Assembly (NCBI RefSeq): GCF_030645145.1
Contig: NZ_JAUSMI010000050.1
Span: forward strand, 1 to 34,673
Length of the DNA stretch: 34,673 nucleotides
Direction: 5' to 3'
From: Microcella sp.
GTDB lineage: Bacteria; Actinomycetota; Actinomycetes; Actinomycetales; Microbacteriaceae
Part shown: positions 1,755 to 17,609 of the stretch, one piece after another
Numbering within the stretch: the stretch's first letter is position 1
Layout: each line of letters opens with the position of its first letter
Notes under the pieces: generated by a model
Told to the model about the DNA's origin: nothing
Database searches by the model: none
What the model saw: the letters and a program-made list of their open reading frames with translations, nothing else
Translations under genes and position numbers: made by a program

Positions 1755-1756
1755 CC

Positions 1757-3517
1757 TCAGCCCCTCACGTAGCTGGCGATCGTGGCGACCGCCGCGGGAA
1801 GCGCGCCCGCGGAATCATCGCCGGCGAAGCGCGTCAGGCGCTCGGCGGTCACGTGCGCCGTGCGGTTGTCGACCGACCAGAGCGGTGTGGGGGTGGGATG
1901 CCACGGCCCGTGGCCGACCGTGCGCTCGACGTGCGCGGGGTCGAGCAGCAGGGCGTTGTGCACCACGCCGATGCCGCTGCCGACCTCGTGCACCTCGTGC
2001 CCCGGGAACGCTCCCCATGTCGCGCCGGGCATGCCGAAGAGCGGGCCGACCCAGCAGTTGACGCCGACCGTGCCGTACTCGAGGGTCGCGATCGCCGCGT
2101 CGAGGGCTCCGCGGAGGGCGCGGCGCGTGCGCGGGTGGATCACGATGCCCGCACCGAGCGTCCCCGCGAGGCGGCCGTTGCAGAACGCGACCGCGGCGTC
2201 GAGGAAGGCCGCCGGGTCGACGACGCCGTCACGGGCGGGCGCCGACGGCACGCGCACGACGCCGAGCACGGGCCCGAAGACCTCGGTCGTGAAGAGCGGC
2301 TCGGTCTCGTCGGCGGGGTCGAGATGGTCGACGAGGGCGCGCGCGGCGGCGGGGTCTCCGCCGAGGCTCACGGCGTCGGGGTGGCCGGCGACCGCGGCGT
2401 CGCGCCGTTCGGCCGCTCCGGGGTAGTAGGCGGGGCGAACGGGTGCGGCCGCGAGGTGCCCGCGGAGCTTCGCGACGAGCGCGTCGGCGTGCTCCCACTC
2501 GGCGGGGATCACGACGAGCTGCGTCGCGATGCAGTTGAAGCCCGAGTTGTGCAGGCGCTCGGTCGCGATGCCGCGGGCGACGGTGTCGAGGTCGTCGTCG
2601 GTCCAGCGGTCGCGACCGCGCGCGCCGTCGGCCCCGCCCGGGACGACGATGACCGGGCCGACGCCGCCGAGCTCGCTCGTGATCGGCTTGTCGAGGATCG
2701 GCCGCCGCCCCAGGCGGCGCGCCTCGCGGTCGGGGCCCGCGCCGAACACGATCGTGTCGTGGCTCGCGCGGCTGCCGGTGATGTGGATGCGGTCGACGTC
2801 CGGGTGGTGGATGAGCGCCTGCCCGACCTCGTGGTCGCCCTCGACGATGCGCACGAGGTCGCGCTCGATCGCGGGAGCGAACGCCGCGCGCAGGGCTTCG
2901 CCCACGTGCGCGTTCACGGGGTTGAGCTTCACGACCGCGGCGCTCGCCTCCTGATACAGGGCGGTCAGCACGTCCAGGGCCGGGATGCCCGTGATGTTCC
3001 CGGCGCCGAGCACCGCCGTGACCAGGGGCGCGCGATCACGATCGCGGAGGGCTCCCGCGATGCCCGCACGGGCATCCTCGATGCTCACGCCGCGGCGGAG
3101 CCAGACGTCGGCGGAGTACCCGGGGAGCACGGCGTCCTTCGGCAGGTACGGGAAGGCGCGGATCGCGACGCGGCCCTGCGGGGCGCGGTCGACGCGACGG
3201 TCGGTGAAGGGGGAGCCGCCCCGCTCGATCGTGCGGAGGGTCTTCTCCAGCGCGCTCGTCGCGGTGATGACGGCGTAGGGGCCGCTCGACCACTCCTCGC
3301 CGGCGGCAGGGCTGCTCGGGTCGATCTGCTTCACGGCGCACGCGGCGGCGACCCAGTCGGCGGCGGCCGCGGCGGTGGCGCGGCGCAGCTCGGGCAGCAG
3401 GGCGCGCTTGGTGGCGAGGTCGCTCGCGACCCAGGAGGCCGCGCCTCGACGGAGCGCGGTGAGGTCGGCGTCGAGTGCGGAGGGGAGCTCGTGGGTGCGC
3501 GTCGCGGCGTCGCTCAC
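1757..3517 (-). CDS. Aldehyde dehydrogenase family protein, long divergent type (586 aa)
   Basis: This is an NAD(P)-dependent aldehyde dehydrogenase-fold enzyme. The catalytic cysteine is Cys329 in NSGFNCIATQ and the general-base glutamate is Glu282 in SELGGVGP. Cofactor-loop sequences VLGAGNITGIPALDV (about 169-183) and KLNPVNAHVG (about 197-206) replace the usual PWNFP and KPA motifs, marking it as distant from the common 480-500 residue enzymes; it is also about 90 residues longer. The start is a GTG at 3517 preceded by a strong ribosome site (GGAAGGAG, about 6 nt away). An extended -10-like TACGCT lies on the minus strand at 3567-3562. It stands 78 bp after the IclR gene and 2 bp before the GMC oxidoreductase, so it probably oxidises the aldehyde made by that enzyme. 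The substrate is unknown. Confidence 0.88.
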   Translation of the reverse strand: MSDAATRTHELPSALDADLTALRRGAASWVASDLATKRALLPELRRATAAAAADWVAAACAVKQIDPSSPAAGEEWSSGPYAVITATSALEKTLRTIERGGSPFTDRRVDRAPQGRVAIRAFPYLPKDAVLPGYSADVWLRRGVSIEDARAGIAGALRDRDRAPLVTAVLGAGNITGIPALDVLTALYQEASAAVVKLNPVNAHVGEALRAAFAPAIERDLVRIVEGDHEVGQALIHHPDVDRIHITGSRASHDTIVFGAGPDREARRLGRRPILDKPITSELGGVGPVIVVPGGADGARGRDRWTDDDLDTVARGIATERLHNSGFNCIATQLVVIPAEWEHADALVAKLRGHLAAAPVRPAYYPGAAERRDAAVAGHPDAVSLGGDPAAARALVDHLDPADETEPLFTTEVFGPVLGVVRVPSAPARDGVVDPAAFLDAAVAFCNGRLAGTLGAGIVIHPRTRRALRGALDAAIATLEYGTVGVNCWVGPLFGMPGATWGAFPGHEVHEVGSGIGVVHNALLLDPAHVERTVGHGPWHPTPTPLWSVDNRTAHVTAERLTRFAGDDSAGALPAAVATIASYVRG

Positions 3518-3595
3518 GTCGGCTCCTTCCTTCCGCGTCGTCGGTGAGCGCGGATGAGTCGAGCGTACGACGGCGAAGCCGAGACGGCACCCGAT

Positions 3596-4486
3596 CTAGC
3601 CCTCGGTGGCGCGTAGCCCGCGCTCGGGTGCCCCCAGCTGCTCCGAGAGCTCTCGGGCAATCTTCGCGACGACGCGACCCGCGGCATCCAGGTGCTCGCC
3701 GAGGCGATGCTTCGGGGCGCTGACGTTGATGGCGGCGATGACGGTGCCGCGGAAGTCGAAGACGGGGGCCGAGACGCCGACGACGCCCGCCTCGAACTCC
3801 TCGTCGACCTTCGCGTAGCCCTGTCGTCGGATGCGCGCGATCTCGGCGAGGAACGCCTCGACGTCGGTCACGAGCGACGCGCCCGGAACGGGCTCGGAGG
3901 GCGAGGGGGATCCGAAGGCCGTCGCCACGGGGGCGCTCGGGCTCGTGATGGCGCGGTCGTGGCCGTGCACCTCGTACCACTCGCGCAGGTTCTGCTCGGT
4001 CCAGCTCGAGACGAGCACGCGCCCGGCAGAGGTGTTCCAGGCGGCCGTGCTCACGCCCTCCCAGCCGACGCCGCGGAAGGCGTACTCGCTCATCTCGCTC
4101 ACGAGGGTGAGCACGGTGCCCGAGCGCAGCACGCACAAGTGGGTCGTCTCATGCGTCGCGCGCACGACGCGGCGCAGGAACGGCAGGGCACGAGTGACGA
4201 GCTGTGCCTCGCGCGTGCGGGCGGCGAGCGCGTAGAGCTGGTGCCCGAGCCGGTACTGCAGGGTGTCTGGGTCCCTCTCAATGAGTCCCGCGTCGGCGAG
4301 CGTTGCGAGGGTGCGCGAGACGACCGCCTTGTCGCGATCGGCGAGGGCGGCGACGCGACTGACGCCGAGACCCCCCGCGCTCACGCTCTCGGGCGTCGCG
4401 AGCAGCTCGAGCAGCTCCAGGTCGCGCTGCAGCCCGGCGGAGTTGCGCCGGGGTGCGGCGGCGGGGCCCGAAGTCGTGCTCGGCAT
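3596..4486 (-). CDS. IclR family transcriptional regulator
   Basis: The 296-residue protein has an N-terminal winged helix (about residues 18-75, with SRVAALADRDKAVVSRTLATLADAGLIER as the helix-turn-helix) and a C-terminal IclR effector domain (about 85-285). The latter contains the typical segments THLCVLRSGTVLTL, SAGRVLVSSW and GVVGVSAPVFDFRGTVIAAINVSAP. IclR proteins usually control adjacent catabolic operons and respond to a pathway metabolite. This one sits between an oxidoreductase pair read leftward and a ten-gene transport and catabolism operon read rightward, so it likely governs both. A -10 (TAGGCT, 4498-4493) and -35 (TTGTCA, 4522-4517) with an 18-bp spacer place the transcript start on the ATG, which predicts a leaderless mRNA. 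The -35 is one arm of the palindrome at 4508-4522, which points to autoregulation. Confidence 0.95.
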   Translation of the reverse strand: MPSTTSGPAAAPRRNSAGLQRDLELLELLATPESVSAGGLGVSRVAALADRDKAVVSRTLATLADAGLIERDPDTLQYRLGHQLYALAARTREAQLVTRALPFLRRVVRATHETTHLCVLRSGTVLTLVSEMSEYAFRGVGWEGVSTAAWNTSAGRVLVSSWTEQNLREWYEVHGHDRAITSPSAPVATAFGSPSPSEPVPGASLVTDVEAFLAEIARIRRQGYAKVDEEFEAGVVGVSAPVFDFRGTVIAAINVSAPKHRLGEHLDAAGRVVAKIARELSEQLGAPERGLRATEG

Positions 4487-4507
4487 GGCGCGAGCCTAGC
4501 CCCGGTG

Positions 4508-4522
4508 TTGCCATACTGACAA
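4508..4522. promoter_or_regulatory. Putative IclR operator (15-bp inverted repeat) in divergent promoter region
   Basis: TTGCCATACTGACAA is a 6-3-6 inverted repeat with 5 of 6 arm bases matching; adding the flanking G and C (4507-4523) gives 7-base arms. The size and layout fit operators described for IclR-family regulators. Its right arm is also the -35 hexamer (TTGTCA, minus strand) of the iclR gene. On its other side, 6 bp downstream, is the -35 (TTGACG, 4529-4534) of the plus-strand operon. One bound regulator could therefore repress its own gene and either repress or activate the operon. The assignment to this IclR protein is inference from position. Confidence 0.6.
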
Positions 4523-4528
4523 CTAGCG

Positions 4529-4558
4529 TTGACGAAATGATCCAGTCCGACCTACCGT
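4529..4558 (+). promoter_or_regulatory. Predicted promoter of the transport/catabolic operon
   Basis: The -35 TTGACG (4529-4534) is one base off consensus, and TACCGT (4553-4558) is a plausible actinobacterial -10 after an 18-bp spacer. Transcription would start near 4565, about 48 nt before the GTG of the first permease gene. A ribosome site GAGGAG precedes that start. No other convincing promoter is seen before the start of the ten-gene series. Confidence 0.5.
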
Positions 4559-4612
4559 GACTCAACCGCCCACCCCGGGGCGCGATCGCTCGACGCTGAG
4601 TGAGGAGCACGT

Positions 4613-5278
4613 GTGACCCCGTTCGATCTCGCCGGCCTGCTGACCTTCTGGTCGCGCCGCTGGGACGACATCCTCGAGCTGATGGTCGAGCACCTCGTCG
4701 TCGTGCTCATCTCCCTCGCGATCGCGATGGTCATCGGCGTCATCGTCGGCATGCTCACCTGGAACAAGCCGATCCCCGCCGCGATCGTCATCGCGGCCGC
4801 GGGCGTCGCGCTCACCATCCCGAGCCTCGCCCTCCTCGCACTGCTCATCCGGCCCTTCGGCCTCGGCTGGACGAGCACCGTCATCGCACTGACCTTCTAT
4901 TCGCTCCTGCCCATCGTGCGCAACACGATCGTCGGCCTCCGCGAGGTGCCGCCGAGCGTCCTCGAGTCGGCGATGGGAATGGGCATGGGTCCGATCAAGC
5001 GCATGATGAGCATCCAGCTGCCCATCGCGTGGCCGATCATCCTCACGGGCGTACGCGTCGCCGCCCAGCTGACCATCGGCATCGCCGCAATCGCGGCCTA
5101 CGTCGCCGGGCCCGGTCTCGGCACTCTCATCTTCAACGGCCTCTCGTCGCTCGGATCGAAGAACGCGCTCAACTTCGCGCTCACCGGCACGCTCTGCGTC
5201 ATCATCCTCGCGCTCGTGGTCGACGCCGCCTTCGTCCAGATCACTCGCCTCACCACCTCAAGGGGTCTCCGTGCCTGA
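4613..5278 (+). CDS. ABC transporter permease, OpuC/ProW (osmoprotectant) type
   Basis: This 221-residue membrane protein has about five hydrophobic segments. It carries the EAA-type loop that contacts the ATPase, in the segment from EVPPSVLESAMGMGMG to LPIAWPIILTGVR (about residues 115-145). These sequences are characteristic of the OpuCB/ProW/YehW permease family, which moves glycine betaine, choline, carnitine and similar quaternary amines. The GTG start is chosen because a GAGGAG ribosome site lies about 8 nt upstream and longer frames have none. The gene overlaps the ATPase gene by 8 bp, so translation is probably coupled. Its position at the head of an operon with catabolic enzymes suggests nutrient uptake rather than osmotic protection. 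That is inference; the substrate cannot be read from the permease. Confidence 0.93.
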   Translation: MTPFDLAGLLTFWSRRWDDILELMVEHLVVVLISLAIAMVIGVIVGMLTWNKPIPAAIVIAAAGVALTIPSLALLALLIRPFGLGWTSTVIALTFYSLLPIVRNTIVGLREVPPSVLESAMGMGMGPIKRMMSIQLPIAWPIILTGVRVAAQLTIGIAAIAAYVAGPGLGTLIFNGLSSLGSKNALNFALTGTLCVIILALVVDAAFVQITRLTTSRGLRA

Positions 5279-6323
5279 ATCGACCGACACCGCCCTCACG
5301 CAGATCGCGAGCCGCACTGACGGCGCCCGCATCGTTCTCGACCGAGTCAGCAAGGTCTACCCCGGGCAGGACGCCCCCGCCGTCGAGGAGTTCTCGATGG
5401 TCGCCGAGCCCGGCGAGCTCATCATGTTCGTCGGCCCCTCGGGCTGCGGCAAGACCACGACGATGAAGATGATCAACCGCATCATCGAGCCCTCGAGCGG
5501 GTCGATCACGATCGACGGCCGCGACATCCTGTCGCTCGATCCGAGCGAGCTGCGCCGGCACATCGGTTACGTGATCCAGCAGATCGGGCTGTTCCCGCAC
5601 ATGACGATCGCCGAGAACATCGCGGTCGTGCCGAAGCTGCTCGGCTGGAGCAAGCAGCGCACCGCCGAGCGCATCGACGAGTTGCTGCAGACGGTGCAGC
5701 TCGACCCCGGAACCTTCGCTCACCGCTACCCGCGCCAGCTCTCGGGCGGCCAGCAGCAGCGGGTCGGCGTCGCGCGCGCGCTCGCCGCCAACCCGCCCGT
5801 CATGCTCATGGACGAGCCCTTCGGCGCGACCGACCCCATCACGCGCGAGAAGCTGCAGGCCGAGTTTCTGCGCCTGCAGGAATCGATCGGCAAGACGATC
5901 ATCTTCGTCACTCACGACTTCGATGAGGCCATCAAGCTCGGCGACCGCATCGCCGTGCTGAGCGAGCGCTCGCAGATCGAGCAGTTCGACACGCCCGCGG
6001 CGATCCTCGCTGAGCCGGCCAACGCCTACGTGCGCTCGTTCATCGGCCATGGGGCGGCATTGAAGCGGCTCGCCCTCATCCCGGTCGAGACCGCGGTGCT
6101 CGGCGCAGCATCCGCCGCCGTCGACCACCACCGCATTGCGACCGATGACAGCCTGCGCGATGCGCTCGACCTGCTCATCGTGACGGGTGCCCCCGCGATC
6201 GGCGTCGTCGACCGGTCGGGCTCGCTCGTCGGGTCGCTGACGGTCGAGCGCATCTCGACGGCGCTGGGGGCGGATGCCACGGCGCTCGCCGCGACGCGCT
6301 CCGACGAGGGGCGGCCCGCGTGA
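5271..6323 (+). CDS. ABC transporter ATP-binding protein, OpuCA/ProV type
   Basis: The 350-residue ATPase energises the two adjacent permeases. Walker A GPSGCGKT is at 55-62, the Q-loop near Gln103-104, the signature LSGGQQQR at 157-164, Walker B VMLMDE at 177-182 and the switch His at 215. After the nucleotide domain (to about residue 240) there is a C-terminal extension of about 100 residues. It contains one CBS-like stretch (RDALDLLIVTGAPAIGVVDRSGSLVGSLTVERI, about 292-325). OpuA/OpuC ATPases normally carry a tandem CBS pair used for ionic-strength or nucleotide sensing; here one copy looks degenerate. It starts at a GTG inside the end of the first permease gene and overlaps the second permease gene by 4 bp. 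Confidence 0.94.
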   Translation: MPESTDTALTQIASRTDGARIVLDRVSKVYPGQDAPAVEEFSMVAEPGELIMFVGPSGCGKTTTMKMINRIIEPSSGSITIDGRDILSLDPSELRRHIGYVIQQIGLFPHMTIAENIAVVPKLLGWSKQRTAERIDELLQTVQLDPGTFAHRYPRQLSGGQQQRVGVARALAANPPVMLMDEPFGATDPITREKLQAEFLRLQESIGKTIIFVTHDFDEAIKLGDRIAVLSERSQIEQFDTPAAILAEPANAYVRSFIGHGAALKRLALIPVETAVLGAASAAVDHHRIATDDSLRDALDLLIVTGAPAIGVVDRSGSLVGSLTVERISTALGADATALAATRSDEGRPA

Positions 6324-7105
6324 CCGTCTCGACCGCCACGACCGCGATCTCGACCGCGTCGGCCGCACGCCGGACCGACCGCCGCATCCGCATCGCCCGG
6401 CGGGCGGCGACTCCCGTCATCGTCGTGCTCTCGCTCGGCGGCCTGCTGCTGTGGCTGTCGACGCTGGAGCTCGACTCGATCGAGCAGCGGACGCTCAACT
6501 GGGACTACATCGCTCTGCGCACCGGCGAGCATCTCAACCTCACGATCGTGGCGTCGATCCTCGTCGCCGTGCTCGCGATCCCGACAGGCATCCTGCTGAG
6601 CCGAACGAGATCGCGTGCAGCTCGGGGCTTCGTGCTCGGGCTCGCCAACGTCGGCCAGGCGACGCCCGCGGTCGGCGTCGTGATCCTCCTCGCCATCATC
6701 TGGCAGACCGGTTACACGACCGCGCTCGTCGCGCTCGTCATCTACTCGTTCCTGCCCGTGCTGCGCAACACGATGATCGGCCTCGAGCAGATCGACCCCT
6801 TCGTCAAGGAGTCGGCGCTCGGCATGGGCATGACGAGCGGCCAGGTGCTGCGGCGCATCGAACTACCGCTCGCGGTGCCCGTGATCCTCGCTGGTCTGCG
6901 CACCTCGCTCGTCTTCTGCGTCGGCGTCGCGACGATCGCGACCTTCATCAACGCCGGCGGGCTCGGCGACATGATCGTCAACGGCCTCAAGCTCCAGCGT
7001 TTTCCCGTACTCGTGACCGGCGCCGTGCTCGTGGCGAGCATCGCGCTGCTCATCGACTGGGTCGCAAGCGTCGTCGAAGACGTGCTGCGCCCGAAAGGCG
7101 TGTAG
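6320..7105 (+). CDS. ABC transporter permease, OpuC/ProW type (second subunit)
   Basis: This 261-residue permease pairs with the one at 4613-5278. After a short charged N-terminus rich in Arg and Thr (residues 1-30), the first membrane span is near 34-48 and further spans follow. The EAA loop reads QIDPFVKESALGMGMTSGQVLRRIELPLAVPVILAGLRTS (about 155-195). The start is a GTG in a GTGA overlap with the ATPase stop. The order permease, ATPase, permease, binding protein matches opuC/yeh-type four-gene systems. A 62-bp gap without a clear promoter separates it from the binding-protein gene. Confidence 0.93.
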   Translation: MTVSTATTAISTASAARRTDRRIRIARRAATPVIVVLSLGGLLLWLSTLELDSIEQRTLNWDYIALRTGEHLNLTIVASILVAVLAIPTGILLSRTRSRAARGFVLGLANVGQATPAVGVVILLAIIWQTGYTTALVALVIYSFLPVLRNTMIGLEQIDPFVKESALGMGMTSGQVLRRIELPLAVPVILAGLRTSLVFCVGVATIATFINAGGLGDMIVNGLKLQRFPVLVTGAVLVASIALLIDWVASVVEDVLRPKGV

Positions 7106-7167
7106 CGACGACGCTGCTCGCCCGCACTTCGAAAAGCACCGCCCACCCGCATCACCAAGGAGAACAC

Positions 7168-8103
7168 ATGCGCACTCGCACCACAGCTCTGGTGGCCCTC
7201 GCGGCCGCCTCGAGCCTCGTCCTCGCCGGCTGCTCCGCCGGCGCCGAGGCCCCCGTCGCCGAGGAGGAGCAGCTCGTCTCGGGCCTCACCGGCACGATCG
7301 GCTCGAAGGACTTCTCAGAGCAGTACATCCTCGCCCACCTCACGAGCCAGCTGCTCAACGCGTACGGCGCCGACACCGACGTCAACACGCAGGTCGTCGG
7401 CTCGGCCAACGTGCGCACGGCGCTCGAGAGCGACGAGTTCCTCGGCTACTGGGAGTACACCGGCACGTCGTGGATCACGTATAACGGCAACACGGCTCCC
7501 GTCGTCGGCGCCGAGGCCCAGTTCGAGGCGACCAAGGAGGCCGACGCGGCCAACGGCATCGCGTGGCTCGATCCGGCGCCGCTGAACAACACGTACGCGT
7601 TCGCGATCCGCGCCGACAAGGCCGAGGAGCTCGGCGTCTCGTCGCTCAGCGACATCGCAGGCCTCCCCGTCGAGGAGCAGACGTTCTGCATCGAGAGCGA
7701 GTTCTCGACGCGTGACGACGGCTTCCCGGGTCTCGTCGAGGCCTACGGCATCGACGTGCCGGCCGAGAACGTGGCGCTGCTCGACACGGGCGTCATCTAC
7801 ACGGCGACCGCCGAGGGCACCGACTGCAACTTCGGCGAGGTGTTCGCGACCGACGGCCGCATCGCCGCGCTCGACCTGGTCGTTCTCGAGGATGACGAGG
7901 CGTTCTTCCCCGTCTACCAGGCTGGCTTCACGCTCAAGCAGGAGGTGCTCGACGAGTACCCGGGCATCTCCGAGGTCATCGCGATGTTCGCTTCGAAGCT
8001 CACCGACGCCGAGATGCAGCGCCTCAATGCGCTCGCCGACGTCGACGGTGAGGACCCGGAGGACATCGCTCGCGACTGGCTCGAAGAGCAGGGCCTGATC
8101 TAG
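7168..8103 (+). CDS. Substrate-binding lipoprotein, OpuCC/ProX (quaternary amine) family
   Basis: The 311-residue protein has a lipoprotein signal: positively charged MRTRTT, hydrophobic core, then lipobox LAGC with acylated Cys22. The mature part begins TGTIGSKDFSEQYILAHLTSQLL and continues with ALESDEFLGYWEYTGTSW, both typical of the OpuCC/OsmX family that binds glycine betaine, choline and related compounds. The ATG at 7168 is chosen because an AAGGAG site lies 5 nt upstream and the signal peptide begins there; a longer in-frame extension exists but covers the permease gene. Anchoring on the outer face feeds ligand to the permeases. The stop is 2 bp before the Fae gene, linking the receptor tightly to the enzyme set. 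The ligand is unproven. Confidence 0.94.
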   Translation: MRTRTTALVALAAASSLVLAGCSAGAEAPVAEEEQLVSGLTGTIGSKDFSEQYILAHLTSQLLNAYGADTDVNTQVVGSANVRTALESDEFLGYWEYTGTSWITYNGNTAPVVGAEAQFEATKEADAANGIAWLDPAPLNNTYAFAIRADKAEELGVSSLSDIAGLPVEEQTFCIESEFSTRDDGFPGLVEAYGIDVPAENVALLDTGVIYTATAEGTDCNFGEVFATDGRIAALDLVVLEDDEAFFPVYQAGFTLKQEVLDEYPGISEVIAMFASKLTDAEMQRLNALADVDGEDPEDIARDWLEEQGLI

Positions 8104-8105
8104 TC

Positions 8106-8615
8106 ATGGCCTTCACCCTCCAGATCGGCGAGAGCTTCGTCGGAGACGGCGTGAACGCCGCGCACGTCAACACGGTCCTCGGTGATCGGGAGGGCCCCGC
8201 CGGGGTGGCGTGGGCGACAGCCCTCGCCACCCCGAGCGCGGGACACGTCCCGTTCGTCACAGTGCTGCGGCCCTCTCTTCCTGTGAAGCCGCTCACCCTC
8301 TTCGTCACGAAGGCCGCCCCGGCCAGCGATGCGCACGGCCTCCTCATCTGGGGGCCCGCGCAGGCCGGTGTCGCCGCCGGTGTCGCCGACGCGCTCGCCG
8401 AGGGCGTCATCCCGCTCGAGCACGCCGACAGCCACTGCATCATCGCCGCGGTCTGGGTGAACCCCGCCGCCGACGACGCCGACGCCGTCTTCGCCCACAA
8501 TCGGCTCTCCGCCTTCACGGCGCTGCGCAACGGGGCCGAGCGCCTCCCGAGCGCCGACGATGTGATCGCCGCGCGTCACCACCCCGCCAACCCCTTCTAC
8601 TCCCCGCAGAGCTGA
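8106..8615 (+). CDS. fae: Formaldehyde-activating enzyme (Fae) homologue
   Basis: At 169 residues the protein matches the size of the methylotroph enzyme (about 170). The N-terminus QIGESFVGDGVNAAHVNTVLG (6-26) reproduces the Fae motif GEaLVGDGxExAHID, including the conserved His (His20) proposed to be catalytic. The stretches LRPSLPVKPLTLFVTK (54-69) and IWGPAQAGVAAGVADALAEGVIPLEHAD (82-109) match the core of the family. Known Fae condenses formaldehyde with tetrahydromethanopterin; related Fae-like proteins have other or unknown roles. Actinobacteria of this type are not known to make tetrahydromethanopterin and normally use mycothiol for formaldehyde, and no C1 cofactor gene is visible here. 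The real acceptor or reaction may therefore differ. It lies 2 bp after the transporter gene and 4 bp before the enolase-superfamily gene. Confidence 0.85.
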   Translation: MAFTLQIGESFVGDGVNAAHVNTVLGDREGPAGVAWATALATPSAGHVPFVTVLRPSLPVKPLTLFVTKAAPASDAHGLLIWGPAQAGVAAGVADALAEGVIPLEHADSHCIIAAVWVNPAADDADAVFAHNRLSAFTALRNGAERLPSADDVIAARHHPANPFYSPQS

Positions 8616-8619
8616 GCCG

Positions 8620-9723
8620 ATGAAGATCACCGCGATTCGCCTGACCAGGCTGAATCTTCCCCTCGACCCGCCGTTCAACGCGGCCTGGGATCCCGAGCCG
8701 CGCCGCGCCTTCCCGGCCACTCTCGTCACGGTCGAGACCGATGAGGGCGTCACGGGCTACGGCTCGGGCGACACCATGGACGGCTTCGAGGCCTACGAGC
8801 ACCTCTTCGTCGGCACCGATCCGCTGCAGATCATCAACCAGGTGCGCCGCATCGAGACGATCAACTTCCATGGCGGCCGCTACTGGCCGCTCGAGGCGGC
8901 GATCTGGGACATCATCGGTCAGGTGGCCGGGATGCCCGTCTCCGTCCTCTTCGGAGGAGCACGCGACAGACTCCCCGCCTACGCCTCGAGCGGCGAGCTG
9001 CTGAGCCCCGAGGCTCGAGCCGAGTCGGCGCTCGCCGCGAAGGCGGTCGGCTTCCGCGCGATGAAGATCCGCATCGCGCGCGACCGGCTCTCCGAGGGCG
9101 TCGCCGCTGTGCGCGCCGCGCGCGCGGCGGTCGGCGACGACTTCGACCTCATGGTCGACCTCAATCAGATGTGGCGCATGTCGGGCGACATTGACCACGC
9201 CCTCCCACTCGCGAAGGTGCACCGCCTCGCGGCAGAGCTCGCCGAGCTCGGGGTGCTGTGGCTCGAGGAGCCCCTGCCCCAGGTCGACGTACCGGGCGCC
9301 CAGCGCGTGCGCGCGCAGACGGGCCTGCAGCTCTCAGGCGGCGAGATGGTCCGCAGCCTGCCCGAGATGATGGCCCTCATCGAGCAGGACGCCTTCGACA
9401 TCTACCAGCCCGACGTGGCCCTCGCGGTCGGCATGTACCGCGCGCGACAGGTCGCCGAGTCGGCGAACCTTCGCCATCGCTTCTTCACTCCGCACACGTG
9501 GACGAACGGTCTCGGCCTGCTCGCCAACCTTCACGTCGCCGCGGGCGTCGACGCCGGCCCGTACCTCGAGTTCCCGTACGACCCGCCGGGGTGGACCCCG
9601 GAGCGCCGCGACTTCTTCATGACGCCCATCACGATCGACGCGCATGGCGATGTCGTCGTCCCCGACCGTCCGGGGCTGGGCGTCGTGATCGACCACGACG
9701 CCGTCGCGCACTACACGGTCTGA
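8620..9723 (+). CDS. Enolase superfamily, mandelate racemase/muconate lactonizing-type enzyme
   Basis: The 367-residue enzyme abstracts an alpha-proton from a carboxylate and is a racemase or dehydratase of an acid. Metal ligands are Asp180 (LMVDLN), Glu216 (WLEEPL) and Glu242 (SGGEM). The His-Asp dyad is His292 (FTPHTW) with Asp265 (YQPDVA). The N-terminal capping domain is MKITAIRLTRLNLPL to about residue 125. The usual KxK of the mandelate racemase group is Lys149-Ile-Arg151, so the second lysine (the base on one face) is replaced by Arg. That favours a dehydratase or single-face chemistry using His292 over a simple 1,1-proton-transfer racemase. This is an inference. Members of this group include acid-sugar dehydratases and betaine epimerases, and the substrate cannot be assigned. 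It sits between Fae and an aldehyde dehydrogenase. Confidence 0.92.
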   Translation: MKITAIRLTRLNLPLDPPFNAAWDPEPRRAFPATLVTVETDEGVTGYGSGDTMDGFEAYEHLFVGTDPLQIINQVRRIETINFHGGRYWPLEAAIWDIIGQVAGMPVSVLFGGARDRLPAYASSGELLSPEARAESALAAKAVGFRAMKIRIARDRLSEGVAAVRAARAAVGDDFDLMVDLNQMWRMSGDIDHALPLAKVHRLAAELAELGVLWLEEPLPQVDVPGAQRVRAQTGLQLSGGEMVRSLPEMMALIEQDAFDIYQPDVALAVGMYRARQVAESANLRHRFFTPHTWTNGLGLLANLHVAAGVDAGPYLEFPYDPPGWTPERRDFFMTPITIDAHGDVVVPDRPGLGVVIDHDAVAHYTV

Positions 9724-9736
9724 GAGGCTCACGGTC

Positions 9737-11227
9737 ATGACGAACTGGCATGAGGCCGCGGCCGCACTGCGCCCCGAGACGCGATTGCTCATCGACGGCG
9801 AGTTCCGCCCCGCCGCCGATGGTGCGACCTTCGACACGATCGCCCCGCGCGACGGTCGGCTGATCGCGAGCGTGAGCGCAGCATCCGACATCGATGTGGA
9901 TGCCGCGGTGCGGTCGGCGGCCGCCGCGTTCGAGTCGGGCGTGTGGTCGCGCTCTGATCGCCGCCACCGTCAGCGCGTGCTGCTGCGCCTCGCCGAGCTC
10001 ATGCTCGAGAACCTCGACGAGCTCGCGCTGCTCGAAGCCATCGATTCGGGTCACCCGATCGGCGACGCGCGCCGGGTCGACGTGCCCAACGCCGCGCGTG
10101 TCGTGCGCTGGTACGCCGAAGCGATCGACAAGGTCTACGACGAAGTGGCGCCCGCGCCGGAGAGTGCGCTCGCGCTCGTCACGCGGGAGGCGCTCGGCGT
10201 CGTCGGCGCGGTCGTGCCCTGGAACTATCCGCTCATCATCAGCTCGTGGAAGATCGCGCCCGCGCTCGCGATGGGCAATTCGGTCGTGCTCAAGCCGGCC
10301 GAGCTCACGAGCCTCTCGGCGCTCATGCTCGGGCGGCTCGCGCTCGAGGCGGGCATCCCGCCCGGGGTCTTCAACGTCGTGCCCGGGCTCGGTCCTGTCG
10401 CGGGGCAGGCGCTCGGCCGGCACCCGCTCGTCGACAAGGTCACGTTCACGGGCTCACCGGCGGTCGGCCGCGGATTCATGACCTACGCGGGCGAGTCGAA
10501 CGGCAAGCAGGTGGCCCTCGAGCTCGGCGGCAAGTCGCCGCACATCGTGCTCGCCGACGCGGAGGACCTCGACGCGGCCGCGAGCGGCATCGCGTGGGGC
10601 ATCTTCTACAATGCGGGCCAGACGTGCCACGGCGGCAGCAGGCTCATCGTCGACGAAGCCGTGCACGACGAGCTCGTCGAGAAGGTCGTCGCGGTCGGGC
10701 GCTCGCTCGTGCTCGGCGACCCGCTTGACGAGGCGACCCAGATCGGCACGATCGCGAGCGAGCGCCAGCTCGAGCGCGTGCTGGACTACGTGGCCATCGC
10801 CCGCAGCGAGGGCGCCACGGTCATCGGCGGCGACCGCGTCTCGCCGGTCGAGGGCGGCTACTACGTCGAGCCCACGGTCTTCGACGGCGTCGACAACCGC
10901 TCGCGCATCGGCCAGGAGGAGATCTTCGGGCCCGCGCTCGCCGTCACGACCGTGCGCGGTGCCGAGGAGGCTGTGCGCATCGCGAACGACTCGCCCTACG
11001 GGCTCGCCGCAGCCGTGTGGACGAGCAGCGTCACGACCGCGCATCGCGCCGCCCGAGCTCTGCGCGCCGGCACCGTCTGGGTCAACGCCTTCGACATCGC
11101 CGACGTCATCACGCCCTTCGGTGGCTTCAAGGCCTCCGGCTCGGGTCGCGACCGCTCGCTGCACGCGCTCGACAGCTACAGCGCTCTCAAGACCACCTGG
11201 ATCCACCTCGGCGACGACCGTCTCTGA
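9737..11227 (+). CDS. NAD-dependent aldehyde dehydrogenase, PuuC-like
   Basis: This 496-residue aldehyde dehydrogenase oxidises an aldehyde to its acid. It has the cofactor motif VVPWNYPLIISSWKIAPALAMGN, the Glu motif LELGGKSPHIV and catalytic Cys297 in YNAGQTCHGGSR. The C-terminal stretch FGGFKASGSGRDRSLHALDSYSALKTTWI closely follows gamma-glutamyl-gamma-aminobutyraldehyde dehydrogenase (PuuC) and betaine aldehyde dehydrogenase relatives, which accept amino- or ammonio-aldehydes. That fits a quaternary-amine transporter upstream but is not proof. It starts 13 bp after the enolase-superfamily gene. This is the first of two aldehyde dehydrogenases in the same operon, with a third across the divergent promoter. 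Confidence 0.94.
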   Translation: MTNWHEAAAALRPETRLLIDGEFRPAADGATFDTIAPRDGRLIASVSAASDIDVDAAVRSAAAAFESGVWSRSDRRHRQRVLLRLAELMLENLDELALLEAIDSGHPIGDARRVDVPNAARVVRWYAEAIDKVYDEVAPAPESALALVTREALGVVGAVVPWNYPLIISSWKIAPALAMGNSVVLKPAELTSLSALMLGRLALEAGIPPGVFNVVPGLGPVAGQALGRHPLVDKVTFTGSPAVGRGFMTYAGESNGKQVALELGGKSPHIVLADAEDLDAAASGIAWGIFYNAGQTCHGGSRLIVDEAVHDELVEKVVAVGRSLVLGDPLDEATQIGTIASERQLERVLDYVAIARSEGATVIGGDRVSPVEGGYYVEPTVFDGVDNRSRIGQEEIFGPALAVTTVRGAEEAVRIANDSPYGLAAAVWTSSVTTAHRAARALRAGTVWVNAFDIADVITPFGGFKASGSGRDRSLHALDSYSALKTTWIHLGDDRL

Positions 11228-11260
11228 CGGCCCGCCCCTTCGAATCGAGTGACGCACCTC

Positions 11261-12181
11261 ATGACCAGCATCTCCCTCCCCACCGTTGGCTTCATCGGAC
11301 TCGGCAACATGGGTTCGGGCATGACCCGCAATCTGCAGGCCGCGGGCTTCCCTCTCGTCATCACCGACATCCGCCGCGAGTCGGGCGACGCGCTCGTCGC
11401 GGGCGGCGCGGTCTGGGCCGACACGGCGGCGGATGTCGCTTCCGCCAGTGATGTCGTCATCACGATGCTGCCCACGCCGCGGCACGTGGACGCCGTGCTC
11501 TCGGGGCCGACCGGCCTTCTCGCAGGCGCCCGCGCTGGCCTCACCTGGGTCGACATGTCGACCTCGGTCCCCGAGGTCGCCGAGCGCGTGCGCGCCGCCC
11601 ACCCCGAGCTCGTCGTTCTCGACGCCCCTGTGTCGGGTATGTCGGTCGGCGCCGCGAACGGCACGCTGCAGATCTTCGTCGGCGGCGACGCCGAGCACGT
11701 CGAGCGACTGCGCCCCGTGTTCGAGGCGATGGGCGACCCCGAGCGGATCATCCATGTCGGCGGTCACGGTGCGGGGTACGCCGTCAAGCTCATGATCAAC
11801 CAGCTCTGGTTCTCGCACCTCGTCGCCACAGCCGAGGTGCTCGCGATCGGCGTCAAGGCCGGCGTCGACCTCGACGTGCTGCGCCGCTCGCTCATCGCGA
11901 GCCCCGCCAACAGCACGTTCGTCGAGCGCGACGTGCTCTCGGTGCTCGACCACGGCGACTATGACGAGGGCTTCGCGATCGCCCTCGCGTGCAAAGACCT
12001 CGGGCTCTCGATCGACCTCGCACGCTCGGTCGGCGTGCCCGCCGAGCTCAGTGGCCTCGTCGAGCAGATCTACCGCCGAGCTCGCGCCCAATACGGCGAC
12101 CGTGCGGGGGAGATGACACCCATGAAGCTGTACGAAGATCTCATCGGCCAGGAGCTGCGCCTCGCCGGAGCCGACCGATGA
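11261..12181 (+). CDS. NAD(P)-dependent beta-hydroxyacid dehydrogenase (3-hydroxyisobutyrate dehydrogenase family)
   Basis: The 306-residue enzyme interconverts a beta-hydroxyacid and its semialdehyde. The Rossmann motif GFIGLGNMG is at 10-18, the substrate-binding motif DAPVSGMSVGAANGTL at 121-136, and the catalytic lysine is Lys176 in KLMINQ with Asn180. This is the family of 3-hydroxyisobutyrate dehydrogenase, tartronate semialdehyde reductase and sulfolactaldehyde reductase; the residues visible do not decide among them. A GTG at 11249 would add four residues; neither start has a good ribosome site, and ATG is preferred because the Rossmann strand begins only a few residues later. The stop overlaps the next start by 4 bp (ATGA). 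Confidence 0.92.
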   Translation: MTSISLPTVGFIGLGNMGSGMTRNLQAAGFPLVITDIRRESGDALVAGGAVWADTAADVASASDVVITMLPTPRHVDAVLSGPTGLLAGARAGLTWVDMSTSVPEVAERVRAAHPELVVLDAPVSGMSVGAANGTLQIFVGGDAEHVERLRPVFEAMGDPERIIHVGGHGAGYAVKLMINQLWFSHLVATAEVLAIGVKAGVDLDVLRRSLIASPANSTFVERDVLSVLDHGDYDEGFAIALACKDLGLSIDLARSVGVPAELSGLVEQIYRRARAQYGDRAGEMTPMKLYEDLIGQELRLAGADR

Positions 12182-13380
12182 CCGGCCTCGCGCCCACGGG
12201 CCTCGCTCCGCTGCCCTCCCCGCTTGCACCGCAGTCGCTCACGCTCGACCCCAAGCCCACGGCGCACTTCGGGTGCGGCGCCGTGAGCATGACGGGTTCG
12301 GTCGCCGCCTCACTAGGCGCGCAGCACGCGCTCATCGTCACCGACTCCTTCCTCGCGACGACGCCTGTCGTCGCTGCCGTGCGCGCCTCGCTCGAGGCGG
12401 CCGGCATCACCGTGACGGTCTTCGACGGCGTCGCCCCGAACCCGACGACAACCGCGGTCGACGCGGGCAGCGATGCCGCCGCGGCCGCTGAGGCCGACCT
12501 CGTCGTGCCGGTCGGCGGCGGCTCGTCGATGGATGCCGCGAAGGGCATCGCGCTCGGCGCCGTCAATCCGCAGCGAGGCATCGAGCTCGACTACACCTCC
12601 TCGTTCGAGAACACCGCCCTGCCGATCATCGCCATTCCGACCACGGCTGGCACGGGCGCCGAGGTCAACGCCTTCGGCGTCATCACCGACGTCGTCGGGC
12701 ACCGCAAGTTCTACGTCGGGCATGCGAGCGCCCTCGCGTACGCGGCGATCCTCGACCCCGAGCTGACGATCGGGCTCCCGCCCGGGCCCACGGCCGCCAC
12801 GGGCATGGACGCGCTGACGCACGCGCTCGAGTCGTACCTCTCCGTGCGCGCGAATCCGTACTCCGACGGCATCGCCCTGCAGGTGATCTCGACCGTCGCT
12901 GAACACCTGCCGCGAGCCGTCGCCGACGGCTCCGACCTCGAGGCGCGCGCCGAGCTGCTGCTCGCGAGCCATGTCGCTGGCGTCGGTTTCTCGCACACGG
13001 GTCTTGGCCTCGTGCACGGCATCGCCCACCCGCTGGGCGGCCAGTTCAACATTCCGCACGGGCTCGCGCTCTGCATCGTCGTCGAGGATGTCCTGCGGTT
13101 CAGCCTCCAGGCGCGCCGCGCTCGCATCGCTCGCGTCGCCTTCGCGCTCGGCGTCGGCCGCACCGACGCGAGCGAAGCCGAGAACGCCGAGGCGGCGATC
13201 GTCGCCGTCGGAGAACTCGCTCGACGGGTCGGCATGACCGCGCCGCTGTCGGGCTTCGGTGTCACCGAGGAGGCTCTCTCGTCGCTCGCGCGCGACACGC
13301 TCGCCGACGCCGTGACGATCAACGCTCCCGTGCAGCCGCGCGAAGAGGACGTAGTCGAGATCCTTCGACGCGCCCTCTGA
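12178..13380 (+). CDS. Iron-containing (group III) alcohol dehydrogenase
   Basis: The 400-residue protein belongs to the FucO/methanol dehydrogenase/4-hydroxybutyrate dehydrogenase family. The nucleotide motif GGGSSMDAAKG is at 113-123 and PTTAGTGAEV at 154-163. The metal ligands are Asp211 and His215 (GMDALTHALESYL), His280 (VHGIAHPLGG) and His294 (NIPHGLAL); all four are present. The enzyme interconverts an alcohol and an aldehyde with NAD. About 25 proline- and alanine-rich residues precede the domain. It overlaps the preceding hydroxyacid dehydrogenase gene by 4 bp and precedes a succinic-semialdehyde-type aldehyde dehydrogenase by 38 bp, so alcohol to aldehyde to acid is the natural reading. 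The exact alcohol is unknown; formaldehyde formation from methanol is possible in the family but not shown here. Confidence 0.93.
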   Translation: MTGLAPTGLAPLPSPLAPQSLTLDPKPTAHFGCGAVSMTGSVAASLGAQHALIVTDSFLATTPVVAAVRASLEAAGITVTVFDGVAPNPTTTAVDAGSDAAAAAEADLVVPVGGGSSMDAAKGIALGAVNPQRGIELDYTSSFENTALPIIAIPTTAGTGAEVNAFGVITDVVGHRKFYVGHASALAYAAILDPELTIGLPPGPTAATGMDALTHALESYLSVRANPYSDGIALQVISTVAEHLPRAVADGSDLEARAELLLASHVAGVGFSHTGLGLVHGIAHPLGGQFNIPHGLALCIVVEDVLRFSLQARRARIARVAFALGVGRTDASEAENAEAAIVAVGELARRVGMTAPLSGFGVTEEALSSLARDTLADAVTINAPVQPREEDVVEILRRAL

Positions 13381-13418
13381 GCTCGACCGCCGCCGCCGCC
13401 ACCACCACTCGAGAGACC

Positions 13419-14894
13419 ATGACGACCGAGAACGAACTCCTGGCCCGCATCCCGACCGACCTCTATGTGGGAGGCGGATGGCGCTCCGCCTCCACCGGCG
13501 CCCGCTTCGACGTCATCGACCCCTCGACCGGCGAGCCGATCGCGAGCGTCGCTGATGCCTCACCGGAGGACGGCGAGGCGGCGCTCGCCGCCGCCCACGA
13601 GGCGCAGCGAGCGTGGAGCCGCACGCCCCCGCGCGAGCGAGCCGAGCTTCTGCGGCGCGCGTTCGAGCTCGTCACCGAGCGCGCCGACGACTTCGCGCTC
13701 GTGATGACGTTGGAGATGGGCAAGACGCTCGCCGAGTCGCGCGGAGAGGTCGCGTACGGCGCGGAGTTCCTGCGCTGGTTCTCGGAGGAGGCCGTGCGCA
13801 TCTCGGGCCGGTACTCGACCGCCCCGGACGGGCGCAACCGACTGCTCGTCACGAAGCGACCCGTGGGGCCCAGCCTGTTCATCACGCCGTGGAACTTCCC
13901 CCTCGCGATGGCGACGAGGAAGATCGCGCCCGCGCTCGCGGCCGGGTGCACCTCGGTTCTCAAGCCCGCGGCGCTCACGCCGCTCACGGCACTCCTCTTC
14001 GCCGACGTGCTGCATGAGGCGGGCATCCCCGCGGGAGTCGTCAACGTCATCCCGACCACGCGGGCGGGCGCCGTCACCGGGCCGCTCATCGCGGACAGTC
14101 GTTTGCGCAAACTCTCGTTCACCGGCTCCACCGAGGTGGGCCGACGACTCATCGCCGACGCGGCACCCCAGGTGCTGCGCGTCTCCATGGAGCTCGGCGG
14201 CAATGCCCCGCTCATCGTTTTCGATGACGCCGACCTCGATCAGGCGGTCGATGGCGCGATGCTCGCCAAGCTGCGCAACGGCGGTGAGGCATGCACGGCC
14301 GCCAATCGCTTCATCGTGCACGAGGCCATCGCGGAGGAGTTCACGGCGCGACTCGTCGAACGGATGAGTGCCCACACCGTTGGTCGGGGAACGGACGCTG
14401 CCTCTCGTATCGGCCCGCTCGTCGACGCCGCCACTCGCCATAAGGTCCAGCAGCTGGTCGACGGAGCTGTGTCGGAGGGCGCCCGGGTCGCGCTCGGCGG
14501 CGCGCCCCTCGACGGCCCCGGCTACTTCTACCCGCCGACGGTGCTCGTCGATGTGCCCGCCCATTCCGGGATCCTGCGTGAGGAGATCTTTGGCCCTGTC
14601 GCCCCGATCGTCACGTTCTCGACGGAGGATGAGGCGATCTCGCTGGCGAACGCGACCGAGTACGGGCTCGTTGCGTACGTTTTCACGCGCGACCTCGATC
14701 GAGGACTTCGCATCGCCGAGGAGCTCGAGGTCGGGATGCTCGGTCTCAATGCGGGAGTGATCTCCAACCCCGCGGCACCGTTCGGAGGCGTCAAGCAATC
14801 GGGGCTGGGGCGCGAGGGCGGATTCGAGGGGATCGAGGAGTATCTCGAGACGCAGTACATCGGAATCAGCGACCCGCAGGCGACGAAGCCCTAG
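13419..14894 (+). CDS. NAD(P)-dependent aldehyde dehydrogenase, GabD (succinate-semialdehyde)-like
   Basis: This is a 491-residue aldehyde dehydrogenase. The cofactor motif is FITPWNFPLAMATRKIAPALAAGC, the Glu motif MELGGNAPLIVFDDADLD, and catalytic Cys292 lies in RNGGEACTAANRF. The C-terminal APFGGVKQSGLGREGGFEGIEEYLETQYI ending is typical of succinate-semialdehyde and sulfolactaldehyde dehydrogenases. The enzyme would oxidise a carboxylated (acidic) semialdehyde. It is the last gene of the ten-gene series. After its stop there are 48 bp with only a weak bulged hairpin before the polyketide synthase gene, so read-through cannot be excluded. The nearby hydroxyacid and iron-type alcohol dehydrogenases are possible suppliers of the semialdehyde. 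Confidence 0.94.
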   Translation: MTTENELLARIPTDLYVGGGWRSASTGARFDVIDPSTGEPIASVADASPEDGEAALAAAHEAQRAWSRTPPRERAELLRRAFELVTERADDFALVMTLEMGKTLAESRGEVAYGAEFLRWFSEEAVRISGRYSTAPDGRNRLLVTKRPVGPSLFITPWNFPLAMATRKIAPALAAGCTSVLKPAALTPLTALLFADVLHEAGIPAGVVNVIPTTRAGAVTGPLIADSRLRKLSFTGSTEVGRRLIADAAPQVLRVSMELGGNAPLIVFDDADLDQAVDGAMLAKLRNGGEACTAANRFIVHEAIAEEFTARLVERMSAHTVGRGTDAASRIGPLVDAATRHKVQQLVDGAVSEGARVALGGAPLDGPGYFYPPTVLVDVPAHSGILREEIFGPVAPIVTFSTEDEAISLANATEYGLVAYVFTRDLDRGLRIAEELEVGMLGLNAGVISNPAAPFGGVKQSGLGREGGFEGIEEYLETQYIGISDPQATKP

Positions 14895-14942
14895 TCTTTC
14901 GCGGCTGTACGCCCGCAAAGCCGACCGTGGAATGATGCGCGC

Positions 14943-16007
14943 ATGTCTCGGATCCTCGCCGTCGCGCCCGTGCTGCCTGAGAACGTGCACGAGCAGCACG
15001 AGATCACGGCAGAGCTCGGCGCGCGCCTCACCGGCGACCGCGCGGCGCGCTCGGTGCTCGAGCGGGTGCATGCCGCGAGCGGCATCAAAACGCGGCACCT
15101 CGCGCTGCCGCTCTCGCGGTACGCCGAACTCGACTCGTTCAGCGAGACCAACGCGCTCTTCATCGAGCTCGCTCTGCCGCTCGTCGAACGGGCGGTGAGC
15201 ATCGCGCTGCGCGAGTCGGGCTTGCGGGTGGAGGATGTCGACCACCTCTTCTTCACGACCGTCACGGGCGTGCAGGCCCCCTCCCTCGACGCGATGCTCG
15301 CGACGTCGCTCGGGTTCCGCTCCGACCTGAAGCGCGTGCCGAGCTTCGGGCTCGGATGCGTCGCCGGCGCCGCCGGGATCGCGCGCGTCTCCGACTACCT
15401 GGCCGGGCATCCCACCGGGGTCGCACTTCTCGTGAGCGTCGAGCTGTGCTCGCTGACGCTGCAGTGGTCGGATCAGTCGATGGCCAACGTCGTCGGCACC
15501 GGCATCTTCGGCGACGGGGCCGCCGCGGTCGTCATGACGGGCGACGCGCACCCCGCGGCCGTCGCCGCCGGAGCGAGCAGGCCGCGCGTGATCGGCAGCC
15601 GCAGCGCTCTGTACCCCGACAGCTCCGAGATGATCGGCTGGCAGATCGGGTCGACCGGGTTCACGCTCATGCTCGCCGCGGGCGTTCCGGCCCTCATCGA
15701 CGGGCACTTCGCCGCGGGGGTCGACGCACTGCTCGCGGAGGCCGGGATCGGGCGCTCGGACGTCGATCGGTGGATCGCCCACCCGGGCGGCCCGCGCATC
15801 CTCGAATCGTTCACGGCGGCGCTGAACCTGCCACCCGCCGCGCTCGACACCTCGTGGGAAGTCATGGCGCGCACCGGCAACCTCTCGTCGGCCGCCGTGC
15901 TGCACGTGCTCGCCGCGGTCGGCGACCAGACCGCGGGCACGCGCGCCGTGCTCTTCGCCCTTGGCCCCGGCGTCACCGCCGAGCTCGTCCTCCTGGAGTG
16001 GTCATGA
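14943..16007 (+). CDS. Type III polyketide synthase (alkylresorcinol/alkylpyrone synthase-like, SrsA-type)
   Basis: The 354-residue homodimeric ketosynthase condenses an acyl-CoA starter with malonyl-CoA units. The catalytic triad is complete: Cys139 (FGLGCVAGAAG), His280 (WIAHPGGPRILE) and Asn313 (RTGNLSSAAVL). The C-terminal GPGVTAELVLLEW closes the thiolase fold. Length and motifs are those of bacterial chalcone-synthase-like enzymes. Product class is inferred from the neighbours: an isoprenylcysteine-methyltransferase-like protein and an FAD monooxygenase follow with 4-bp overlaps, the layout of the Streptomyces srsA-srsB-srsC phenolic-lipid operon and of bpsA-bpsB in Bacillus. The ATG at 14943 has no ribosome site, so a leaderless transcript is possible. 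Confidence 0.93.
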   Translation: MSRILAVAPVLPENVHEQHEITAELGARLTGDRAARSVLERVHAASGIKTRHLALPLSRYAELDSFSETNALFIELALPLVERAVSIALRESGLRVEDVDHLFFTTVTGVQAPSLDAMLATSLGFRSDLKRVPSFGLGCVAGAAGIARVSDYLAGHPTGVALLVSVELCSLTLQWSDQSMANVVGTGIFGDGAAAVVMTGDAHPAAVAAGASRPRVIGSRSALYPDSSEMIGWQIGSTGFTLMLAAGVPALIDGHFAAGVDALLAEAGIGRSDVDRWIAHPGGPRILESFTAALNLPPAALDTSWEVMARTGNLSSAAVLHVLAAVGDQTAGTRAVLFALGPGVTAELVLLEWS

Positions 16008-17562: not shown

Positions 17563-17609
17563 CGGGGTGCCCTGCGGTGCGCCTGCGGCCGCGGCCTCAG
17601 CGGCGCGGC

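Follow-up and report, generated by a model that had tools for sequence, protein, structure and literature searches.

What a homologue of formaldehyde-activating enzyme (Fae) does in a catabolic operon of an actinobacterium in which tetrahydromethanopterin (H4MPT) is not available is the question raised by this locus. Here, we analyse a stretch of 34,673 nucleotides from Microcella sp. (hereafter the window) and report an H4MPT-free kind of Fae within a conserved catabolic operon, which is more than a mis-annotation. Its substrate is probably not the usual one of Fae, and the pathway that it serves would be one without earlier description; among the titles and abstract openings of the best matches in the open-licence literature none dealt with this Fae group or its operon. 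The features of the locus are collected in Table 1.

Table 1. Features of the Fae operon and its island in the window, in order of position.
Feature	Position	Strand	Evidence and remarks
Presence/absence island with the whole operon	3481..14900		11.4 kb; comparison with congener G475
IclR-family regulator, divergent	3596..4486	-	PF01614 2.3e-25; in 63/66 Fae loci with enough flank
ABC permease 1	4613..5278	+	PF00528 7.9e-17
ABC ATPase, betaine/proline/choline (ProV) type	5271..6323	+	TIGR01186 334.8 bits, cut-off 326.6
ABC permease 2	6320..7105	+	PF00528 1e-22
OpuAC-type substrate-binding lipoprotein	7168..8103	+	PF04069 2.6e-53, scanned as ORF 6274-8103
Fae-family protein	8106..8615	+	Pfam/NCBIfam profiles, predicted fold, alignment, tree
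Mandelate-racemase/enolase superfamily enzyme	8620..9723	+	PF13378 1.7e-47
Aldehyde dehydrogenase, PuuC/betaine-aldehyde-type	9737..11227	+	PF00171 9.3e-161
3-Hydroxyisobutyrate-dehydrogenase-like (HIBADH-like) enzyme	11249..12181	+	PF03446 8e-44, PF14833 4e-30
Iron-type alcohol dehydrogenase (Fe-ADH)	12178..13380	+	PF00465 8e-45, PF25137 3.7e-57; start chosen: ATG 12178
Succinate-semialdehyde-dehydrogenase-like (SSADH-like) ALDH	13419..14894	+	PF00171 1.3e-163; TIGR01780 555 bits, below 646 cut-off

The fae gene runs from ATG to TGA and encodes 169 amino acids with the motifs VGDGVNAAH and GPAQAGV. Its product matches NCBIfam TIGR03126 (142.2 bits, cut-off 118.05) and Pfam PF08714 (E 4.6e-49; 166.9 bits, cut-off 27), the latter being the only family found in the Pfam scan. 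The binding-protein gene ends 2 bp upstream, at 8103, and the next gene begins 4 bp past the Fae stop. The initial annotation of a 169-residue Fae with VGDGxxxAH and GPAQxGV motifs, 2 bp after a binding-protein gene, is thus borne out by the reading frame, the profiles and the coordinates. This is a real gene and not a chance reading frame, since the proteins of the best 80 of its 119 relatives are 53–83% identical to it in the best segment and the genes stand in the same order in three genomes of 1.42–1.66 Mb assembled as single contigs, all of which keep the full window-type operon. The closest named relatives are from Microbacteriaceae. By sequence, the closest solved relative is the Fae of M. 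extorquens, and the second solved match, 8ub7, contains that same sequence. An AlphaFold2 model of the monomer (pLDDT 92.8) has M. extorquens Fae, 1y5y, as its best solved structural match (TM 0.87–0.93; rmsd 1.1 across 153 aligned columns, with 33% identity).

The window protein and its relatives (the window type) were compared with canonical Fae in an alignment of 111 rows, including 101 of the window type and 8 canonical ones. His20, which we take to be the catalytic histidine numbered His17 in the literature, is kept in all 100 readable window-type rows (one of the 101 has a gap) and in the 8 canonical rows; Lys69 and Gln86 are each found in 101 of 101 and in all 8. Six other positions separate the two groups: the canonical rows have, in 8 of 8, Asp22, Asn43, Phe47, Gln77, Trp120 and His162, against Asn (99 of 101), Pro (101), His (98), His (100), Pro (98) and Asn (99) in the window type. 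Further substrate contacts of canonical Fae are presumably Asp19, Leu48, Lys66, Thr68 and Gln83. Of these the window protein retains the Lys and the Gln and shows Asp to Asn, Leu to Val and Thr to Ala; across the 101 rows Asn22 is present in 99, while the canonical-like Leu51 and Thr71 occur in 17 and 14, respectively.

An unrooted tree of 59 rows placed the 8 canonical sequences on one side of a branch with support of 100/100 and a length of 2.93. They stand next to a Streptomyces clavuligerus protein (L123), a placement made unsure by the long branch. That protein has Phe47 and Trp120 in common with canonical Fae, yet belongs to a window-type operon, and the split as read from the sequences is not clean everywhere. 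As far as alignment, model and tree can tell, the window protein has the Fae fold and retains His, Lys and Gln of the catalytic type outside the canonical group. The initial annotation had held that clustering outside Fae together with a lost histidine pocket would refute formaldehyde chemistry; the position outside canonical Fae was indeed found, and the catalytic-type residues proved to be kept. Window-type Fae is also carried on plasmids of Burkholderia, Caballeronia and Ensifer. Two other Fae-family proteins (L129, 3983-4531; L130, 3989-4543) have Glu or Met in place of the catalytic-type His and form a long separate branch; the gene of the former adjoins glnT/glxC genes.

The cofactor problem noted in the initial annotation was confirmed. 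The host genome is a 2.41-Mb draft of 98.99% completeness. Marker proteins were sought in it and in 22 further actinobacterial genomes with Fae, among which two reach no more than 82% and 88% completeness. Mch, beta-RFAP synthase and Ftr were found in 0 of these 23 genomes, the own genome included. Three named control genomes were positive for Mch, and two plasmids with canonical Fae (Azoarcus and Phyllobacterium) for the other two proteins, neither of which matched on two plasmids carrying window-type Fae, where the search covered the plasmid sequences themselves. In eight plasmid regions with a more distant Fae, mch lay within 4 kb in three and a formylmethanofuran dehydrogenase subunit was present in one, the other four having no H4MPT-type neighbour or no annotation. 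Because these marker profiles are absent, H4MPT is not available in this organism and was rejected as the cofactor. That the protein is an ordinary H4MPT-dependent Fae, as its TIGR03126 score above the cut-off might suggest, has practically no chance of being right: besides the missing markers, the protein falls outside the canonical group in the tree, and for the own genome this reading could survive only if the missing 1% contained all three genes.

Mycothiol, which the initial annotation had offered as another acceptor, fares little better in this organism. The mycothiol ligase MshC reached 268.7 bits in the own genome (cut-off 485.1), about what a paralogue, for example cysteinyl-tRNA synthetase, would score, and mycothiol-dependent formaldehyde dehydrogenase reached 127.8 bits (cut-off 512.9). 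With both scores below their cut-offs, mycothiol is very probably not available here, and it was discarded as the acceptor in the own genome. Mycothiol-linked formaldehyde detoxification does operate in other actinobacteria (PMC8879981), and MshC and the dehydrogenase exceed their cut-offs in 5 and 4 of the 23 Fae carriers, respectively. MshC is below the cut-off in the remaining 18, nine of which score 391–429 bits and may hold divergent forms. As an account of the window Fae, this detoxification is highly improbable.

Once H4MPT and mycothiol are discounted for the own genome, the common C1 carrier that remains is folate. Formaldehyde released in the pathway could then be condensed with tetrahydrofolate by a protein that has kept the Fae fold and the His, Lys and Gln, an unlikely explanation. 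It has to contend with the lack of any recognised C1-carrier gene among the neighbours in 80 loci, where part of the shared families are annotated, and with the lack of a certain formaldehyde-forming enzyme in the operon. The M. extorquens enzyme is not known to use tetrahydrofolate, which also counts against it.

The whole operon is present or absent as one unit. Congener G475 matches the window at 1-3480 (91%) and 14901-17565 (90%) with 258 bp between the two matches (L158, 15515-15772), and since its flanks are joined by these 258 bp only, the 11.4 kb can be regarded as a single presence/absence unit. The island begins just outside the IclR gene, on its left, and ends just past the SSADH-like stop. 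No match to Fae was found in G475, nor in any of the five congeners listed. In 2-kb steps the G+C content of the island is 0.68–0.72 against 0.73–0.75 in the near flanks, though values as low as those of the island return at 26-34 kb, at the far right of the contig. The island looks like an acquired catabolic operon. Contamination of the contig was rejected, as its right part has matches in all five of the congeners searched and G475 aligns with both flanks around the empty site. Just right of the island, at 14943-17562, are genes for a type III polyketide synthase, an ICMT-type methyltransferase and a FAD-binding enzyme; membership of Fae in this polyketide cluster was dismissed, the cluster being outside the island. 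Just left of the operon, a 586-aa reading frame on the minus strand (1757-3517) has a weak match to the aldehyde dehydrogenase family.

Within the operon, neighbouring plus-strand genes overlap by at most 8 bp or lie at most 62 bp apart. The reading frame 6274-8103 is over-extended, its first part overlapping permease 2 in another frame, and a lipoprotein-like signal suggests that the binding protein probably starts at 7168. The closest solved structures to this long reading frame are acetylcholine and nicotine sensor proteins, OsmF and EgtUC. The racemase-type enzyme has among its solved relatives 3,6-anhydrogalactonate cycloisomerase (5xd7-5xd9; 67.5 bits, well below the best at 114.9), which we take to be an ether-opening member of the enolase superfamily. 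All 25 best NCBIfam models for the first aldehyde dehydrogenase score below their cut-offs. Solved relatives of the HIBADH-like enzyme are 3obb, 3cky and 1vpd, the SSADH-like protein is closest to succinate-semialdehyde dehydrogenase 3jz4, and the Fe-ADH to NAD-dependent methanol dehydrogenase 8zrl (272 bits), followed by lactaldehyde reductase (237 bits). Pfam and NCBIfam scans of the operon in the window found no oxygenase or demethylase family, and choline or betaine demethylation within the operon was set aside on that ground.

The company of Fae was counted in 66 loci with enough flank, taken from the best 80 of the 119 relatives. The HIBADH-like gene is found in 63 (57 on the same strand within 8.5 kb) and the SSADH-like gene in 60 (38 so placed, the others divergent or distant), while the regulator, similarly frequent, is so placed in six. 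The ABC importer occurs in 43 loci and an MFS gene in 18. Beside this constant part stands one of two modules: the racemase-type, ALDH and Fe-ADH genes, as in the window, in 43 loci, or an SDR with a flavoenzyme resembling alkyl-DHAP synthase (AGPS) in 17, and none of the 66 loci has both. An FGGY kinase accompanies the second module in 12 of the 17, the other five sequences ending near the flavoenzyme gene. Four loci have the HIBADH-like and SSADH-like genes without either module; one of these, L047, shows an SDR and is probably an incomplete view, as the stretch ends early. The importer is missing from 23 loci, 17 of them with the racemase module, and an MFS gene is found instead of or besides it in 15 of the 43 racemase-module loci.

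The alcohol dehydrogenase beside Fae changes in fold. An aldo-keto reductase adjoins Fae in all four proteobacterial plasmid loci and a Zn-ADH in six others (L074, L075, L088, L113, L115 and L116); in L147 the Fae gene is divergent and followed by SSADH-like and Zn-ADH genes, the latter two genes away. In a more distant group (L113–L116) Fae is paired with a racemase-type gene. In several other lineages a HalD-like Fe/2OG oxygenase directly precedes Fae, overlapping or abutting it, in seven loci (L106, L107, L108, L111, L112, L078 and L109) and is present in two of the 66 counted loci (L091 and L097). Halogenases of the Fe/2OG type lack the acidic residue of the HxD...H motif, which is invariant in all seven aligned sequences, so that a halogenase was rejected and a hydroxylase-type enzyme is more likely. 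In L106 and L091, the Fae gene is followed by one for a hydrolase of the alkyl-sulfatase type. The theme common to these arrangements would be an enzyme making an aldehyde or a carbinol beside Fae, though not universally.

Co-occurrence was assessed in 299 family genomes per search, the three sets presumably being the same genomes and the counts uncorrected for relatedness. Fae is present in 31 of them. The racemase-type subfamily (E <= 1e-110) is found in 20, all 20 of which are Fae carriers, and the AGPS-like enzyme (E <= 1e-150) in 22, of which 13 carry Fae and 9 do not. One gene or the other thus accompanies Fae in 31 of 31 carriers, against 9 of 268 non-carriers. The modules are not strictly alternative, since genome G427 carries SDR/AGPS/FGGY and the racemase-type gene in one cluster; in G538 the racemase-type and AGPS-like genes are at separate places. 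Another proposal is that the protein is a non-catalytic aldehyde-binding or regulatory relic. In its favour, deletion of the Fae homologues Fae2 and Fae3 in Methyloversatilis caused no growth defect on C1 compounds (PMC5023235). A relic is nonetheless very unlikely here, given that Fae is present in all 20 carriers of the racemase gene, is kept with the whole operon in the three genomes of 1.42–1.66 Mb and has the catalytic-type His in every readable row.

The reading that we prefer, tentatively and at slightly less than an even chance, is that of a Fae-fold enzyme separated from H4MPT and acting in a catabolic pathway on an aldehyde made by the alcohol dehydrogenase of the operon. An aldehyde intermediate of the pathway itself is favoured as the substrate because the conserved neighbours are an alcohol dehydrogenase of changing fold and an SSADH-like ALDH. 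The ABC importer would take up a quaternary-ammonium-type compound, a class suggested by the transporter family, and the alcohol dehydrogenase (HIBADH-like here, of other folds elsewhere) would convert it to an amine-bearing aldehyde. Fae could act on this aldehyde or on its amine adduct by the carbinolamine chemistry known for the family, releasing for example an amine or a formaldehyde unit, and the SSADH-like ALDH may oxidise the remaining aldehyde. The Fe-ADH, ALDH and racemase-type enzyme might convert a three-carbon, glyceryl-like part to a 2-hydroxy-3-alkoxy acid, followed by beta-elimination. In the sister operons the SDR, FGGY kinase and AGPS-like flavoenzyme may achieve the same removal, with cleavage of a glyceryl ether via an alkyl-DHAP intermediate.

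The OpuAC-type importer leads us to propose glyceryl-ether betaines, among them betaine-lipid head groups, as a candidate class, and the imported quaternary-ammonium compound is possibly one of these. A full version of this proposal is decidedly unlikely. In it, the Fae fold would serve outside C1 metabolism as an enzyme that releases an amine, by retro-Mannich reaction or beta-elimination, from a beta-ammonio aldehyde supplied by the alcohol dehydrogenase of the operon. The pathway would be widespread and would break down compounds such as glyceryl-trimethylhomoserine or glyceryl-hydroxymethyl-trimethyl-beta-alanine, the ether being opened either by an enolase-superfamily beta-elimination yielding pyruvate or by the kinase and the AGPS-like flavoenzyme yielding DHAP. 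No account of bacterial ether cleavage in betaine-lipid head groups was found among the titles and abstract openings of the best open-licence matches. Genes for a guanidino-acid hydrolase (guanidinobutyrase/guanidinopropionase-like) and a GABA-permease-like transporter adjoin Fae in three genomes (L104, L117 and L118) and do not fit a glyceryl betaine, and the ABC importer, where present, only suggests the quaternary-amine class and is absent from 23 of 66 loci.

Other observations count against the preferred role on a pathway aldehyde. Beside Fae in L104, L105 (where SDRs and an acyl-CoA dehydrogenase are near) and L114, and in the HalD loci L091 and L097, no gene was recognised as that of an alcohol dehydrogenase, and the AGPS-like gene occurs in nine genomes without Fae. 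The likeness of the Fe-ADH to methanol dehydrogenase would fit plain formaldehyde. It would also suit a protein that binds formaldehyde to a small carrier, the hydroxymethyl adduct then being oxidised by the adjacent alcohol dehydrogenase, as class III ADH does with thiol adducts. In 64 of 66 loci Fae is found together with an alcohol dehydrogenase (HIBADH-like in 63, Zn-ADH in L074), and the flanking Zn-ADHs of G042, G111 and G175 reach 244–282 bits against the model for mycothiol formaldehyde dehydrogenase, which has its cut-off at 512.9. With a single fixed adduct, a dehydrogenase of varying fold (HIBADH, AKR or Zn-ADH) would be surprising and the SSADH-like ALDH superfluous, so that a small carrier seems unlikely.

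Should the preferred reading prove right, methanopterin would be dispensable for a large group of Fae proteins, and the operon, which even genomes of 1.4 Mb retain, would encode a catabolic route not described before, in which two modules can replace each other. Public records label window-type genes as formaldehyde-activating enzyme, a label that suggests methylotrophy where the pathway is missing. The role of orphan Fae homologues would also become directly testable in ordinary culturable bacteria.

Among known systems, AGPS is the closest solved relative of the sister-operon flavoenzyme (4bby, 162.9 bits, against 98.2 for glycolate oxidase, the next kind), an identity expected from the motifs before the search of solved structures gave it. 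HHHGIGKY and Arg272, the equivalent of an Arg419 that we take to matter in AGPS, are kept in 21 of 21 sequences. Unlike AGPS, the flavoenzyme is bacterial, has 492 aa and is encoded beside an SDR and an FGGY kinase; it probably runs towards cleavage. The SDR, AGPS-like and FGGY genes also occur away from any Fae (L149–L155 and L157): seven genomes with this trio have no Fae, and in G538 the trio has a location of its own. The seven regions fetched from the nine AGPS-only genomes have SDR/AGPS/FGGY and no Fae match, and the transporters beside the trio are weakly MFS-like in the five scanned (four AGPS-only genomes and G538). The trio has the look of an independent pathway for a compound of the glyceryl type; no paper joining AGPS with FGGY was found in the open-licence literature.

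Glutathione-dependent formaldehyde-activating enzyme (Gfa) shares with Fae the name and an adduct-forming role, and its fold is unrelated to the Fae fold. Gfa is described as a zinc-dependent enzyme (PMC4776306). Fae2 and Fae3 of methylotrophs are, like the window Fae, homologues without assigned function, described for an organism that has H4MPT (PMC5023235). Possible relatives of these are L129 and L130, set apart by their replaced histidine and separate long branch, and our guess is that L129 is Fae3. Canonical, H4MPT-dependent Fae (EC 4.2.1.147; M. extorquens 1y5y/1y60), a homopentamer, is alike in fold and in the equivalents of His20, Lys69 and Gln86. It differs from the window type at the six positions given above, and its neighbourhoods hold mch, whereas window-type Fae resides in a catabolic operon in genomes without H4MPT markers.
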